53,224 nucleotides of DNA from Alphaproteobacteria bacterium (GTDB lineage: Bacteria; Pseudomonadota; Alphaproteobacteria; UBA2966; CAIVPW01): contig JABHVE010000014.1 in assembly GCA_018658465.1 (NCBI GenBank), positions 1 to 53,224 on the forward strand, given 5' to 3'. Under the pieces are notes generated by a model, which saw nothing but the letters and a program-made list of their open reading frames with translations, was not told where the DNA came from and did no database searches. Shown one piece after another: positions 570-9,197 of the stretch; positions within the stretch are counted from its first letter, which is position 1, and the number at the start of each line of letters is the position of its first letter. The position numbers and the translations under genes are program-made.

Positions 570-680
570 TTGAAACAACGCGAATGGACGCGAAACACCG
601 CCTCACCCGCTAGCATTTTTGCCAACGAACGGAAAAGGCGGTGTTGCGCGCCAGTCACTAGATTAAGTATATGGAGCATC

Positions 681-1508
681 ATGGCACATCGCAAGGGCCG
701 CAAACCCCAAATTTTGCCCCAAAAATCGAACGAGGCTGGCCCAAATAGGCGGCCGTCTGGACGCACAAGAAGATCCAAGGCCTCTGGTCTGTGGATTTAC
801 GGTGTTCATGCGGTGACAGCGGTAATGAGGAACCCTGCCAGAACCATCGAAAGACTGGTTGTGAGCCCCGAAGCTGCGCGCCGATTGGATGCAGAGATTG
901 ACACAGCCGCTGCCGAGCGAAATATCAAACCCGAAGCCCTGAACCAGCGAGGAATTCAAGCGGAACTCCCGGCCGGAGCCGTGCACCAGGGAGTCGCGGT
1001 CCTCACCTCACCGCTGGCAAACCCTGATTTTGAGCAGGTCTGCACCCCAACCCCCGGTGACCGCGCCACCGTGCTGGTGTTGGACCAAATCACCGATCCC
1101 AGAAATTTTGGGGCCATTCTGCGCTCTGCCGGGGCGTTTGGTGCCCTGGCCGTGGTGGCCACTGACCGCCACGCGCCCCCTGAGAGTGGGGCATTGGCGA
1201 AGGCCGCATCCGGGGCCCTGGAAACCGTGCCTGTGGTGCGAGTGACCAACTTGGCCCGGGCATTAGACACCCTTGCAGACCTTGGGTATTGGCGCACTGG
1301 CCTGGCGGCCGAGGGGACCCAGCCATTGATCGCCCGCCCCGACCGATCCGCCATTGCCCTGGTGCTAGGGGCGGAAGGGTCGGGCCTGCGCCGACTAACC
1401 ACCGAGCATTGCGATTCACTTGAGAAAATCCCCGCTGGGGGCCTGAACGTTTCCGTGGCCGCCGCTGTGGCTCTGTACGAATTGACACGGGCGACACACC
1501 AAACCTAG
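681..1508 (+). CDS. rlmB: 23S rRNA (guanosine-2'-O-)-methyltransferase, RlmB/TrmH family
   Basis: A SPOUT methyltransferase of 275 residues, expected to methylate a guanosine 2'-hydroxyl in 23S rRNA (G2251 in E. coli) using SAM. The N-terminal part (about residues 30-110) is the substrate-binding domain seen in RlmB. The C-terminal SpoU domain shows motif 1 (LDQITDPRNFGAILRSA), motif 2 (LGAEGSGL) and motif 3 (LNVSVAAAVALYE), which together form the knotted SAM site. An upstream in-frame TTG at 570 would add 37 residues. ATG 681 is preferred because GGAG lies five bases before it and MAHRKG is a plausible basic start. It is divergent from the tRNA/tuf unit. Confidence 0.93.
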   Translation: MAHRKGRKPQILPQKSNEAGPNRRPSGRTRRSKASGLWIYGVHAVTAVMRNPARTIERLVVSPEAARRLDAEIDTAAAERNIKPEALNQRGIQAELPAGAVHQGVAVLTSPLANPDFEQVCTPTPGDRATVLVLDQITDPRNFGAILRSAGAFGALAVVATDRHAPPESGALAKAASGALETVPVVRVTNLARALDTLADLGYWRTGLAAEGTQPLIARPDRSAIALVLGAEGSGLRRLTTEHCDSLEKIPAGGLNVSVAAAVALYELTRATHQT

Positions 1509-1544: not shown

Positions 1545-2372
1545 CTAGAGGGCCGGGACCAGACCCAATCCGTCGTCACCCTCGACCGGCGGCTCTGGGT
1601 CAGGCTCTTCCTCGGCCAATTCGGCGAAGCGCAGCAGTTCGGCCATCAATTCATCGAACGTGCCGGACTCCAGGGTGAAGCCATCGGGCAAATTCAGAAC
1701 CAAGCCTTCTTCGGTCGCCAGCAGCTCAGCCTCGGCGATCAGCGCCGCCAACAGTTCCTCATCGACAATCAAGACCTCATCTTCGCCACCACCCGGGGGC
1801 GGTGCTGGGGGCTCGTCGCCCGCCGGGGGCTCACCACCCGCCGGAGGTTCATCACCTGCTGGAGGCTCATCTCCTGCTGGGGGCTCATCATCTACGCCAC
1901 CCTCGTTCGGCGGTTCACCATCTGCACCGTCATTTGTTGGGTCTTCACCTTCGCCGCCGTCACCGGCGCCGGGCTCATCGCCTCCTGGGGGCTCGTCGCC
2001 TGGGGGTTCGCCTCCTGGGGGCTCGTCACCCGGGGGTTCGTCACCTGGGGGTTCGTCACCTGGGGGCTCGTCACCCGGGGGTTCGTCGCCTGGGGGCTCG
2101 TCATCCTTTGGATCATCGTCATCTTTTTCATCGTCGTCATCCTTGTCCTTGTCATCACCAGCTTCTTTCGCTTGTTGCTTCTCCAGCACCTCTTCCAGGC
2201 GCTCTCTGGCCGCCTCTGGTGCTTTTTCCAGCACCCGCTCCAGTGCTGCCGCGGCCTTGCCCTGAGCATGGGCGGCGTTGTCGATGGCGGACAGGCCCAG
2301 AACCAATGCCGCAGCGCCAGCCCACACCAAGCCTTGGGATAGAGACGTATTGTTCATCAAGGTACGTTTCAT
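1545..2372 (-). CDS. Secreted acidic protein with Gly-Asp-Glu-Pro-Pro repeats
   Basis: Function not recognised. The 275-residue product begins with a clear signal peptide (MKRTLMNN, a hydrophobic stretch, then AHAQ). Next come a Lys/Glu/Ala helix, a run of Asp/Lys, and about 100 residues of low-complexity GDEPP and AGDEPP pentapeptides. The C-terminal 80 residues are less repetitive and rich in Glu and Leu (ELLAALIAEAELLA). The whole mature protein is strongly acidic. The start at 2372 has GGAGAG five bases upstream; a longer reading to 2447 lacks such support. No anchor motif, Ca-binding repeat or catalytic motif is visible. It could be an exported structural or metal-binding polymer-like protein. 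It is convergent with rlmB. Confidence 0.75.
   Translation of the reverse strand: MKRTLMNNTSLSQGLVWAGAAALVLGLSAIDNAAHAQGKAAAALERVLEKAPEAARERLEEVLEKQQAKEAGDDKDKDDDDEKDDDDPKDDEPPGDEPPGDEPPGDEPPGDEPPGDEPPGGEPPGDEPPGGDEPGAGDGGEGEDPTNDGADGEPPNEGGVDDEPPAGDEPPAGDEPPAGGEPPAGDEPPAPPPGGGEDEVLIVDEELLAALIAEAELLATEEGLVLNLPDGFTLESGTFDELMAELLRFAELAEEEPDPEPPVEGDDGLGLVPAL
1800..2106. repeat. 15-bp tandem repeats coding for xGDEPP-type pentapeptides
   Basis: Two blocks of degenerate 15-bp units (about 1803-1895 and 1972-2106) occur inside the acidic secreted-protein gene, separated by a non-repetitive stretch. The unit encodes A/P-G-D/G-E-P-P on the minus strand. Third-position differences between units show the array is not freshly expanded. 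This is a coding repeat, not a CRISPR array. Confidence 0.85.
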
Positions 2373-2519
2373 GGGTCTCTCCAAAATGGTTCGAAGCACC
2401 TCCGCGGTGCCCCGGTCCTGTAAACGTAGGGATGCGGACTCCGCCAAAGAATTGACGGATGAACATTTCGACCCGGATTTTGTGTTACCCCGTCACAGGT
2501 GACAGGCGTTTTGGCCGCC

Positions 2520-5118: not shown

Positions 5119-5445
5119 CTATTCAATAAAGGCGTTGGCCCCGTCGTTTGCCGCGCGTCTTGACAAGGTGTCGGAAAATTCAAGGCCTTCACACAGATCC
5201 ATCACCCGGGTTTGGGCGCGGCTGGCGTTGGTCACCGCATCCTGGAAATGTTGGCGGTCCAGCATCATGAATACGGCGCCACAGGCCATGCGGTTTTGCT
5301 CGCGCACATTCGCTTCGGCGTAGACCGCACCGACCAGCATGGCCAACAACACCCAGCCGATCGGCGTTTTAAGGAACGACGCCACATTGCCACGGGACCA
5401 CCAGGGCTTGAGTTCAATGGAGGCTGTCAGGGTGCGGTCGTTCAC
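5119..5445 (-). CDS. Module protein B, copy 1 (unknown, single membrane segment)
   Basis: Not recognised. A 108-residue protein with one membrane segment (PIGWVLLAMLVGAVYAEA, about residues 28-45) and a short C-terminal domain that begins CGAVFMMLDRQ. Two cysteines (55 and 85) are 30 residues apart, the same spacing as in copy 2. It begins with GTG, which overlaps the TGA of module protein A by four bases (GTGA), so A and B should be translationally coupled. Its paralogue is at 5860-6201. The domain after the membrane segment is probably periplasmic, where the Cys pair could form a disulfide; this is inference. Confidence 0.75.
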   Translation of the reverse strand: MNDRTLTASIELKPWWSRGNVASFLKTPIGWVLLAMLVGAVYAEANVREQNRMACGAVFMMLDRQHFQDAVTNASRAQTRVMDLCEGLEFSDTLSRRAANDGANAFIE

Positions 5446-5798
5446 AGGACGCTCACATTGCCGCGTCTGGTGCGGCACACCTGCGGGAAGCTGGCCAAGG
5501 CACCATCGGACCAATGGGCCCGTCCGCCAGTACGGCAGTCGGACAATGGCCACCGGTAAACATAGTTTTCGGGGATGCGCCCGGCGCATATGTCAAAGGC
5601 GATGTTTTCGTACCGACCGACAAAATATTCTGGGATACCGGTGGCACCGACGACCACCGGGCTTAGGGCGACACAGGTTGCCGAAAAATTTCGGTCATTG
5701 CGGGCCGCGGTGGCGGAAACAAATGCAATCAGCACCACGATCCCCCAGGTGACTGGGTTGGTGGCCAGTTTGCGATTAAAACCGATCCAAGAAAGCAT
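5442..5798 (-). CDS. Module protein A, copy 1 (unknown, single membrane segment)
   Basis: Not recognised. A 118-residue protein starting MLSWIGFNR, with an N-terminal membrane segment (WGIVVLIAFVSATAA) and a roughly 85-residue soluble domain with four cysteines (42, 71, 88, 108). Conserved stretches shared with copy 2 are SPVVVG, VGRYE, WPLSDCR and FPQVCR, and both end in RGNVSVL. It has no clear Shine-Dalgarno sequence. Its stop overlaps the start of module protein B by four bases. The N-terminal anchor and four conserved Cys suggest a disulfide-bonded periplasmic domain; function unknown. Confidence 0.75.
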   Translation of the reverse strand: MLSWIGFNRKLATNPVTWGIVVLIAFVSATAARNDRNFSATCVALSPVVVGATGIPEYFVGRYENIAFDICAGRIPENYVYRWPLSDCRTGGRAHWSDGALASFPQVCRTRRGNVSVL

Positions 5799-5859
5799 GT
5801 TTGTTTGTTACCACGCTGGGGGCGACTAACAATCCCAATCCCCGCACATCGCTAAATTT

Positions 5860-6201
5860 TTACTCGGGTTCGAACCAATCCGCACCGACCAAACCACCGC
5901 GCAGATCCAAACTATCCGGCTGGGCAAAACCTTCGCAGGCCCGCATGAACCGGGCTTTGGTGCGGGAAACCCCATCGTATTCTCCGGTGAACAATTGCCG
6001 ATCAAGCATGACCGACACTGCCCCGCAAACGACCCGGGTTTCGGCCCGCACCGAGGCATCCATGGAGGCAAACCCAACCAGGGCCGTCAGCATCACCCAC
6101 GCCAAAGGCGTTTTCAGAAACGCTTTCAAATGGCCACGCGATGGCGGCCACAAGGCGATGCTCGCCGGGATGCGAGTCTGTGGCGCGGCGCTATCGGTCA
6201 T
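5860..6201 (-). CDS. Module protein B, copy 2 (unknown, single membrane segment)
   Basis: Paralogue of the protein at 5119-5445. It has 113 residues, a membrane segment (LAWVMLTALVGFASMDA), the shared motif CGAVSVMLDRQ and two cysteines (59 and 89) 30 residues apart. The ATG overlaps the TGA of module protein A copy 2 by four bases (ATGA). The N-terminal 25 residues and the last 25 residues differ most between copies, while the membrane segment and the Cys region are kept. Function not recognised. Confidence 0.75.
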   Translation of the reverse strand: MTDSAAPQTRIPASIALWPPSRGHLKAFLKTPLAWVMLTALVGFASMDASVRAETRVVCGAVSVMLDRQLFTGEYDGVSRTKARFMRACEGFAQPDSLDLRGGLVGADWFEPE

Positions 6202-6557
6202 AGGACGCTCACATTGCCGCGGTTGTGACGACAAACCTGGGGGAACGCGGCCAAAGTGCCATCGGACCACATGGCCCGTCCCCCTGGGCGGCAGTCAGAC
6301 AGCGGCCAGGCGTCTATGTAATTGTCGGGAATGCGTTCACGTCCGCACGTTTCATAGGCGATGCGTTCGTACCGGCCCACATAGTACCCGTCTGCACCCG
6401 TGCCACCCACCACAACGGGGGAGATAACCTCGCAGGTATAAGTCAGATGCAGATCACTGCGGCTAGCCGCAGCACCAGCGATCAGCACCAACACCAGCGC
6501 CCCAAGGGTCACAGGGTTGGTCACAAACGAACGATTTATTCCGAGCCAAGAAAGCAT
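6198..6557 (-). CDS. Module protein A, copy 2 (unknown, single membrane segment)
   Basis: Paralogue of the protein at 5442-5798: 119 residues starting MLSWLGINR, a membrane segment (LGALVLVLIAGAAAS), and cysteines at 42, 71, 89 and 109 in the same relative places. The C-terminal half is nearly superimposable on copy 1 (WPLSDCR, GGRA, WSDG, FPQVCR, RGNVSVL). The start at 6557 is chosen because it aligns with copy 1; ten extra upstream codons are open but unsupported. It lies 79 bases downstream of the histidine kinase on the same strand, so kinase and module may be co-transcribed. Function not recognised. Confidence 0.75.
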   Translation of the reverse strand: MLSWLGINRSFVTNPVTLGALVLVLIAGAAASRSDLHLTYTCEVISPVVVGGTGADGYYVGRYERIAYETCGRERIPDNYIDAWPLSDCRPGGRAMWSDGTLAAFPQVCRHNRGNVSVL

Positions 6558-6636: not shown

Positions 6637-7740
6637 CTAATTGGCGGCTGGAGATGGGCCGTCTGCGCCGCCAGACAAGTTTCCCGAAACCTGGGGATCG
6701 CTGATGATTGGAAAATCCAGCCAGAATTCGCTGCCCTTGCCCATTGCGCTGTGAAACCCAATGCGCCCACCCATGTCTTCGACCATCCGCTTGGTCAGGG
6801 TCAAACCCATGCCCGTGCCTTCAAAATCTGAGTTTTCCTGACCCAATCGCTGAAAGGGCTCAAACACTTGGGACTGCAAATCTTCGGGGATTCCTTGGCC
6901 GGAATCCTTCACCGTGATGCGCAAAGACAAGTCTTGGGTTTCCAACGTGGAAAGGCTGACCGAGCCGCCGGATTGGTTATATTTCACGGCATTGGACAAC
7001 AGATTGAGCAACGCCTGTTTCAGCGCCACCTTATCAACGCTGATAACAGGCAACGATCCCGCCCCGACATTGTCGTGAAAGGTCACGCTGCCCCGGTCAG
7101 CCAAGGCCTCGGCGACCACCGCACATTCATGGATGACTTGGCCCGGATCCACATCCGAGACCTCCAAATCATGGGTGCCGGATTCGATCTGGGCTAGATC
7201 CAACAGGCCGTTGATCAGCCCCATCAAATGAGTGCCAGAATCCAAAATATGCTCGATGGCCTCGTCTTGGGGTTTGCTCAAGGGCTGGTAAACCCCGGCT
7301 TGCAGCATTTGGCCAAACCCCAAAATCGCGTTCAGGGGCGTGCGCAACTCGTGGCTCATGGACAGCAAAAATTTTGATTTGGCGACGTTGGCCGATTCGG
7401 CAGCGTTGCGTTCTTGGGAAACCCGCACGACGGTCACAAGTGTTGCGGCGGCCCAAACGGCAAATCCAGCCAACATGCGGTTCATCACCACCACCCAGGC
7501 CACTCCGCCCGGGGGCGACAGCAAGTACCCGGCGACAATCAGGCCAGTGGCAATGGCAGCCAGTACTAGAACGGCTCTTTTTTGGGGAAACCACCACCCC
7601 ACCATGACCAAAGCCACATAGGGGACTCCGCCCGCCACCCCCAATGGCAAAGACAAATCCACGAAAAAGACCAGCCCGGCAACGACGACAGCCGAGGTAA
7701 TCAAAAGTCTTGGATCAAGATGGGAGCGTGTCGGAATCAT
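6637..7740 (-). CDS. Membrane-bound sensor histidine kinase
   Basis: A 367-residue kinase. The N-terminal 105 residues carry about four membrane segments with almost no periplasmic loop, so the sensor is likely membrane-embedded. A short linker leads to the HisKA dimerisation domain with the H-box SHELRTPLNA (His130). The HATPase domain has the N-box (LLNLLSNAVKYN), G1 (DSGQGIP), F-box (FEPFQRL) and G2 (GTGMGLTLTKRMVE). All catalytic motifs are intact, so it should autophosphorylate. No cognate response regulator is adjacent; the genes downstream on the same strand are the duplicated A-B module, which may be its output or partner. Confidence 0.92.
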   Translation of the reverse strand: MIPTRSHLDPRLLITSAVVVAGLVFFVDLSLPLGVAGGVPYVALVMVGWWFPQKRAVLVLAAIATGLIVAGYLLSPPGGVAWVVVMNRMLAGFAVWAAATLVTVVRVSQERNAAESANVAKSKFLLSMSHELRTPLNAILGFGQMLQAGVYQPLSKPQDEAIEHILDSGTHLMGLINGLLDLAQIESGTHDLEVSDVDPGQVIHECAVVAEALADRGSVTFHDNVGAGSLPVISVDKVALKQALLNLLSNAVKYNQSGGSVSLSTLETQDLSLRITVKDSGQGIPEDLQSQVFEPFQRLGQENSDFEGTGMGLTLTKRMVEDMGGRIGFHSAMGKGSEFWLDFPIISDPQVSGNLSGGADGPSPAAN

Positions 7741-7916: not shown

Positions 7917-7992
<76 letters not shown>

Positions 7993-8345: not shown

Positions 8346-9197
8346 TTGCGATCCGATAAGATATTTGTGTGGCTGATCGGGGCTTTCCTGATCGGCGGCG
8401 TCGCCGTTGTGTCGACAATTGCCATCCGCACGGTCCCCTATGGTGGCGATCCCGAGGCGGCATTTGCAGCCGAAGATTACGACGCGGCTCTGGAATTCTG
8501 GCAGGCCCAGGCAGTGGACGGTGACGCACGGGCACTGATCCAAATTGGCTTGATGTACGAAAATTCATTGGGGGTTTTCGAAGATTTCCCCAAGGCCGCC
8601 GAATCCTATCTCCGCGCCGCCGAACTGGGCCAAGCCGATGGCTATTCGAAACTGGGTGCGTTGTACGAACAGGGCCGGGGGTTCGACACAGACATGGACG
8701 AAGCCATGCGCCTGTACGGAATGGCAGCGGACCAAGGCGATGCCCAGGGGCAATTCAAATTGGGGGCATTTTACGAGATTGGCCGCTATACCCAACGGAG
8801 TTACGACGAAGCGGCCCGGCTTTACGCATTGGCCGCGAATCAGGGGCATTCGGACGCCCAGGTCAGCCTTGGATCGCTGTATTTGGCCGGGCGCGGCGTC
8901 GAGCGAAATAATCGCGAAGCGGCAAAGTGGTACCGCGCCGCAGCCGAGGGCGGCAATGCTGGGGGCCAGTTCAGCATGGGGATTTTGTTCGAAAACGGAA
9001 TCACGGTTCCCCGCGATTATGTCCAGGCATATGCGTGGTATCGTCTGGCTGCGGTTCAGGAATACGGGGGCGCGGCCCGAAGCTTGTCCACCATCGAAGA
9101 ACAGCTGTCGCCGCCGGAGCTAGAACGGGCCAAAACATTGTCCGTGGAAATGTGGGAACTGTATGTGGCCCCGTTCCAAAATGGGGCCGAAGGCTAA
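8346..9197 (+). CDS. Membrane-anchored Sel1-repeat protein
   Basis: A 283-residue protein with an N-terminal signal anchor (FVWLIGAFLIGGVAVVSTIAI). It is followed by at least five Sel1-like repeats of about 36 residues, each with the A-x-G-x-x-x-LG-x-LY/F-E-x-G-x-G pattern (for example YSKLGALYEQGRGF, AQVSLGSLYLAGRGV, GQFSMGILFENGI). Sel1 repeats mediate protein-protein contacts. The start is TTG at 8346, supported by GGAG six bases upstream; no ATG is available near the signal anchor. The downstream TPR gene follows after 25 bases, so the two form a likely operon of periplasmic scaffolding proteins. Client proteins are unknown. Confidence 0.88.
   Translation: MRSDKIFVWLIGAFLIGGVAVVSTIAIRTVPYGGDPEAAFAAEDYDAALEFWQAQAVDGDARALIQIGLMYENSLGVFEDFPKAAESYLRAAELGQADGYSKLGALYEQGRGFDTDMDEAMRLYGMAADQGDAQGQFKLGAFYEIGRYTQRSYDEAARLYALAANQGHSDAQVSLGSLYLAGRGVERNNREAAKWYRAAAEGGNAGGQFSMGILFENGITVPRDYVQAYAWYRLAAVQEYGGAARSLSTIEEQLSPPELERAKTLSVEMWELYVAPFQNGAEG

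Follow-up and report, generated by a model that had tools for sequence, protein, structure and literature searches.

Four short genes, designated A1, B1, A2 and B2 in order of transcription, lie on the minus strand at positions 5119-6557 of the window, i.e. the whole 53,224-nucleotide stretch of DNA analysed here (Table 1). A preliminary description of this DNA, based on the letters alone, had reported an A-B-A-B array on one strand, and we recovered all four open reading frames at exactly the coordinates given there. Both pairs are coupled, as described, by a four-base overlap of stop and start codons: ATGA at the A1/B1 junction and GTGA, with a GTG start for B2, at the A2/B2 junction (a gap of -4 in each case). 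The spacer between B1 and A2 is 61 bp. The cysteine positions match between the two copies of A and between the two copies of B, and the prediction of one strong hydrophobic helix per protein agrees with the proposed single-pass topology.

Table 1. Array genes and nearby features of the window
Feature	Position	Strand	Description
A1	6198-6557	-	119 aa; anchor F-x3-P-x2-[W/L], hydrophobic helix, predicted periplasmic 4-Cys domain (C42, C71, C89, C109)
B1	5860-6201	-	113 aa; anchor as in A1, 2-Cys domain (C59, C89)
A2	5442-5798	-	118 aa; A1 paralogue, 62% identity; Cys 42/71/88/108
B2	5119-5445	-	108 aa; B1 paralogue, 45% identity; Cys 55/85
Histidine kinase	6637-7740	-	HisKA + HATPase_c; 79 bp upstream of A1; outside the conserved system
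tRNA-Thr(TGT)	7917-7992	+	Between the kinase and the Sel1-repeat gene; possible site of a past rearrangement
Sel1-repeat gene	8346-9197	+	Not the orthologue of the Sel1-repeat gene beside the arrays of relatives
Predicted exported protein	1545-2447	-	Long GDEPP-type proline/acidic repeat tract

The window belongs to a 2.05 Mb draft genome (G000; 155 contigs, 95% complete), in which no further copy of A or B was found on any contig. Where it could be computed, dN/dS was ~0.13-0.36 for orthologues and paralogues; B1 and B2 are saturated at synonymous sites. Judged from these comparisons, both copies in the window are under purifying selection. The dN/dS values, together with conservation in relatives, identify A and B as maintained protein-coding genes. 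Moreover, the array exceeds what would be expected by chance, since the same cysteine pattern is found in homologues from seven further genomes and dN/dS lies in this range.

Distribution, order and copy number

A contig search by single sequence returned no match; relatives were recovered by an alignment-based search. In total, 23 A and 16 B proteins (39 proteins) were counted across all eight genomes examined from one taxonomic family. The seven genomes other than that of the window come from three other genera, and every one of them carries both A and B, such that the co-occurrence noted in the preliminary description extends to 8/8 genomes of the family. Seven genomes from the sister family in the same order had neither gene. 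In a class-wide sample of 385 genomes for A and 372 for B, the matches outside the family were marginal; those in G148, G095, G161 and G281 are short, some have internal stops, and we attribute them to chance. Searches of viral contigs with A and B, and of phages and plasmids with A only, returned no match, and we reject a phage or plasmid origin of the array on these grounds. The named relatives are metagenome-assembled genomes. Their isolate names refer to lakes and to the Caspian Sea, from which the uncultured host family is apparently lacustrine.

Profile searches of Pfam, NCBIfam, PHROG and PADLOC gave only sub-threshold chance matches. Sequence, fold and Foldseek searches of the PDB gave no significant match, although the model for B is weak. 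This is in line with the initial impression that neither protein belongs to a recognised family, and a literature search on these proteins found nothing on point. We conclude that A/B is a genuine, undescribed and narrowly distributed gene family, seen in one bacterial family only.

The arrays are compact and always on one strand, with stop/start overlaps in three of the four genera, and they differ in composition. Read in the direction of transcription, the order is ABAB in the window and in G001, AABAB in each of G003, G004 and G006, AAABBB in G002, and AAAB in G007. The array in G005 is ABB, and three more A genes lie on other contigs of that genome, giving four A and two B. A outnumbers B in five of the eight genomes, and at two of the three lone A loci in G005 the sequence extends well downstream of A and contains no B. 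Given the unequal counts and the three G005 loci at which A has no adjacent B, A can probably work without a linked B. The preliminary description had read the parallel retention of both partners as a sign that A and B form a complex and that the two pairs differ in specificity. The idea of fixed pairs with pair-specific functions is weakened by the orders found in relatives, in which strict A-B pairing is not maintained.

A phylogenetic tree of A indicates how the arrays may have been shaped. Copies tend to cluster by genome or genus, and duplication or gene conversion therefore occurred independently in several lineages. The two A copies in the window are sisters (support 100/99), which makes their duplication lineage-specific; the three A copies of G007 also group together (100/100). 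Orthologous A copies are shared by the close relatives G003, G004 and G006.

Three A genes in relatives have features of their own. The first A copy of G004 (L029 9412-9735, minus strand) lacks the usual N-terminus and looks frameshifted with respect to the G003 copy, from either assembly error or decay. One lone A gene in G005 (L034 283-636, plus strand) is followed ~16 bp later on the same strand by a methyltransferase gene (655-1272, plus strand). Another, on G005:C69 (L035 3666-4019, plus strand), shares its contig with genes for a Lipoprotein_15 secreted-repeat protein, a similar open reading frame, and a CusF-like copper-binding protein.

Relationship between A and B

The preliminary description had treated A and B as two separate families. 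Comparison of the 39 proteins does not support this view. The 36-residue anchor of A and B aligns without gaps (F-x3-P-x2-W ... C), and its proline lies exactly 27 residues ahead of the first cysteine in 39/39 proteins. An hhalign comparison of A with B gave a score of 27.6 (P-value 1.3e-4), as against scores of at most 18.8 when all B columns were shuffled and at most 17.6 when only the columns of the anchor region were shuffled. The anchor profiles also rank each other's proteins reciprocally: among 2,638 open reading frames, the top three non-A matches of a profile built from A alone are B proteins, and the top seven non-B matches of a profile built from B alone are A proteins. A joint anchor profile run against 11 whole genomes placed the 39 A/B copies at E ≤ 1.2e-11, with the next best match at E 0.004. 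The shared anchor and cysteine register are thus beyond chance, and A and B are probably paralogues that form two branches of one family.

Outside the anchor, there is no independent profile signal between A and B; the spacing between the first two cysteines (C1-C2) alone agrees. A has 29-30 residues here and B, for the most part, 30-32; outliers of 26 and 39 occur in G002. Since the likeness is confined to the anchor, one anchor fused to two unrelated domains is an alternative explanation. We favour common descent because of the agreement in C1-C2 spacing. A is set apart from B by a second pair of cysteines and by a hydrophobic C-terminus that is conserved. Invariant residues of A include P15, T17, W84 and P85 as well as all four cysteines; those of B include F28, P32, W35, R52 and D67 as well as both cysteines.

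AlphaFold models were built from the family alignments. The model for A, of moderate confidence (pLDDT 79.8), has a long helix at 15-52, a second helix at 62-75 and a short tail that contains beta structure; that for B, of low confidence (pLDDT 65.9), has helices at 32-68 and 80-93. Both models place C1 in the first helix and C2 in the second. A C1-C2 disulfide could therefore staple a helical hairpin in both proteins.

Genomic neighbourhood

In all seven relatives, the array is flanked on one side by a SHOCT-like gene and ccdA, and on the other by a divergent Sel1-repeat gene; the SHOCT-like gene beside the array went undetected in G002. Beyond the Sel1-repeat gene, where the sequence allows, lie a TetR gene and yjbQ. 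In the genome of the window, the counterparts of these genes are on other contigs, with Sel1, TetR and yjbQ on C52 and SHOCT, ccdA and HD-GYP on C7, and the array sits beside mscS and the histidine kinase. A TauE gene is now upstream of the Sel1 orthologue on C52. The simpler reading is that the array was relocated in the lineage of the window, since the three other genera have the alternative arrangement in common, and that adjacency to the kinase is local to this lineage.

The conserved block beside the array (L027-L032, L070) encodes an HD-GYP-type protein, two CxxCxxCC-type proteins, CcdA and the SHOCT-like protein. On C7, copies of the SHOCT-like gene and a DUF2089 gene adjoin ccdA.

Linkage to the Sel1-repeat gene is not obligatory, given that the Sel1 orthologue on C52 is apart from the array. 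We considered the Sel1-repeat gene in the window as the conserved partner and rejected it: the best match to the Sel1-repeat gene beside the arrays of relatives is on C52, at 45% identity, and the gene in the window is not the orthologue. With 27 Sel1 matches in the 2.05 Mb genome, chance may explain why this gene lies close to the array. Three of the 27 matches are in tandem on C32, others are on C14, and the relatives have 9-31 matches each.

As first described, the kinase has no periplasmic sensor domain, consisting of HisKA and HATPase_c only, and no response regulator is encoded among the neighbouring open reading frames. The suggested link between kinase and array did not hold up. No homologue of the kinase was detected at E ≤ 1e-60 in the seven related genomes, and the kinase is beside none of their arrays.

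Possible functions and comparison with known systems

What might A and B do? We propose, with a probability of about 40%, that they are disulfide-stapled bitopic inner-membrane subunits that form mixed oligomers. The A and B genes would be expressed as one coupled transcript. The N-terminus of each protein would remain in the cytoplasm and the cysteine-bearing domain would be oxidised in the periplasm. The shared anchor motif would serve as the assembly interface through which A and B, translated together, combine into mixed oligomers. In A, a further loop between the third and fourth cysteines, ending in the conserved hydrophobic C-terminus, could provide a periplasmic face for binding a partner. 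A plausible candidate for this partner is the exported Sel1-repeat protein that the other three genera encode divergently beside their arrays. A more inclusive proposal is that A/B arrays and this protein make up an envelope complex not described before, restricted to a single uncultured alphaproteobacterial family and built from paralogous disulfide-stapled subunits with one anchor motif in lineage-tuned proportions. In this full form we consider the proposal unlikely.

Membrane anchoring of A and B is itself a prediction, and an alternative is that both are exported periplasmic proteins freed from the membrane by signal peptidase. A small-x-small site does precede the cysteine domain (V-x-A then D or E in many A); A34 is more than 90% conserved in A and is followed by D or E in most rows, and the hydrophobic stretch is short, at ~15-17 residues. 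However, the site is poor in A2 of the window (N34), and the helix in the AlphaFold model of A is predicted to run on through it. Furthermore, no other part of A and B is as conserved as the F-x3-P-x2-W segment, a pattern that would be odd for a signal peptide: conservation before the helix is 0.65 in A, as compared to 0.58 in the domain, and 0.75 for the B motif, as compared to 0.40. Lysine and arginine are also more numerous before the helix than after it in most A and B rows. Together, charge distribution and pre-helix conservation favour a functional anchor with the N-terminus inside over a cleaved signal peptide, and we regard cleavage as somewhat unlikely.

The C-terminus of A suggests another alternative to membrane-anchored mixed oligomers. 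In each of the 23 A proteins the final two residues are V or A and then F, Y or L, an ending that would suit a ligand of a periplasmic PDZ protease of the DegS/CtpA type, with exposure or concealment of the hydrophobic C-terminus reporting the state of the envelope. Nonetheless, none of the genes beside the arrays was recognised as encoding a PDZ protein, and the C-terminus may be no more than a packed strand. This role appears distinctly improbable. HtrA/DegS-type Foldseek matches of the A model have E-values above 3 and were discarded as noise.

Two further alternatives fare worse. The first is that A-B is the input module of the upstream histidine kinase. The genes are on the same strand, 79 bp apart, with no terminator detected between the kinase and A1 and no adjacent response regulator, but the seven related genomes keep A and B with neither the kinase at the array nor a homologue of it at E ≤ 1e-60, making this function very unlikely. 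Equally remote is a toxin-immunity or bacteriocin-immunity array in which one partner neutralises the other: lineage-specific tandem duplication of two small membrane proteins would fit, but A lacks an adjacent B at three loci in G005, A and B counts are unequal, the two proteins look paralogous, and there are neither viral, phage or plasmid relatives (phages and plasmids searched with A) nor PADLOC matches.

Arrays in which small envelope proteins restricted to one lineage are repeated in tandem are already known. The family described here is a marker of a single family of Alphaproteobacteria, uncultured and apparently lacustrine, and it shows that a small membrane-protein array built from one paralogous pair has been reshaped repeatedly and independently. 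The case further illustrates that adjacency in a single genome, in this case to a kinase, can mislead.

Several known systems resemble A/B in part. Small membrane proteins serve as accessory sensors of two-component kinases, and in the window a small membrane protein is encoded beside a histidine kinase; this adjacency is absent in all A/B relatives. With respect to CcdA/TlpA-type thiol redox proteins, ccdA (DsbD_TM) is part of the conserved block of the array in the seven relatives, and the A/B cysteines are predicted to be periplasmic. However, a SHOCT-like gene separates ccdA from the array where both are seen, and ccdA is on another contig in the genome of the window. Unlike CcdA/TlpA-type proteins and c-type cytochromes, A and B have neither CXXC nor CXXCH, the cysteine spacings in A being 29/17/20. 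Type IV pilins and pseudopilins resemble A and B in having a long N-terminal helix whose hydrophobic half is in the membrane, a small disulfide-bearing domain, and several paralogues per operon. This is a resemblance only: no pilus genes were recognised at A/B loci, there is no PDB fold match, and, as read from the alignments, A and B have the anchor F-x3-P-x2-W in place of a prepilin-peptidase motif of the G|FxxxE type.
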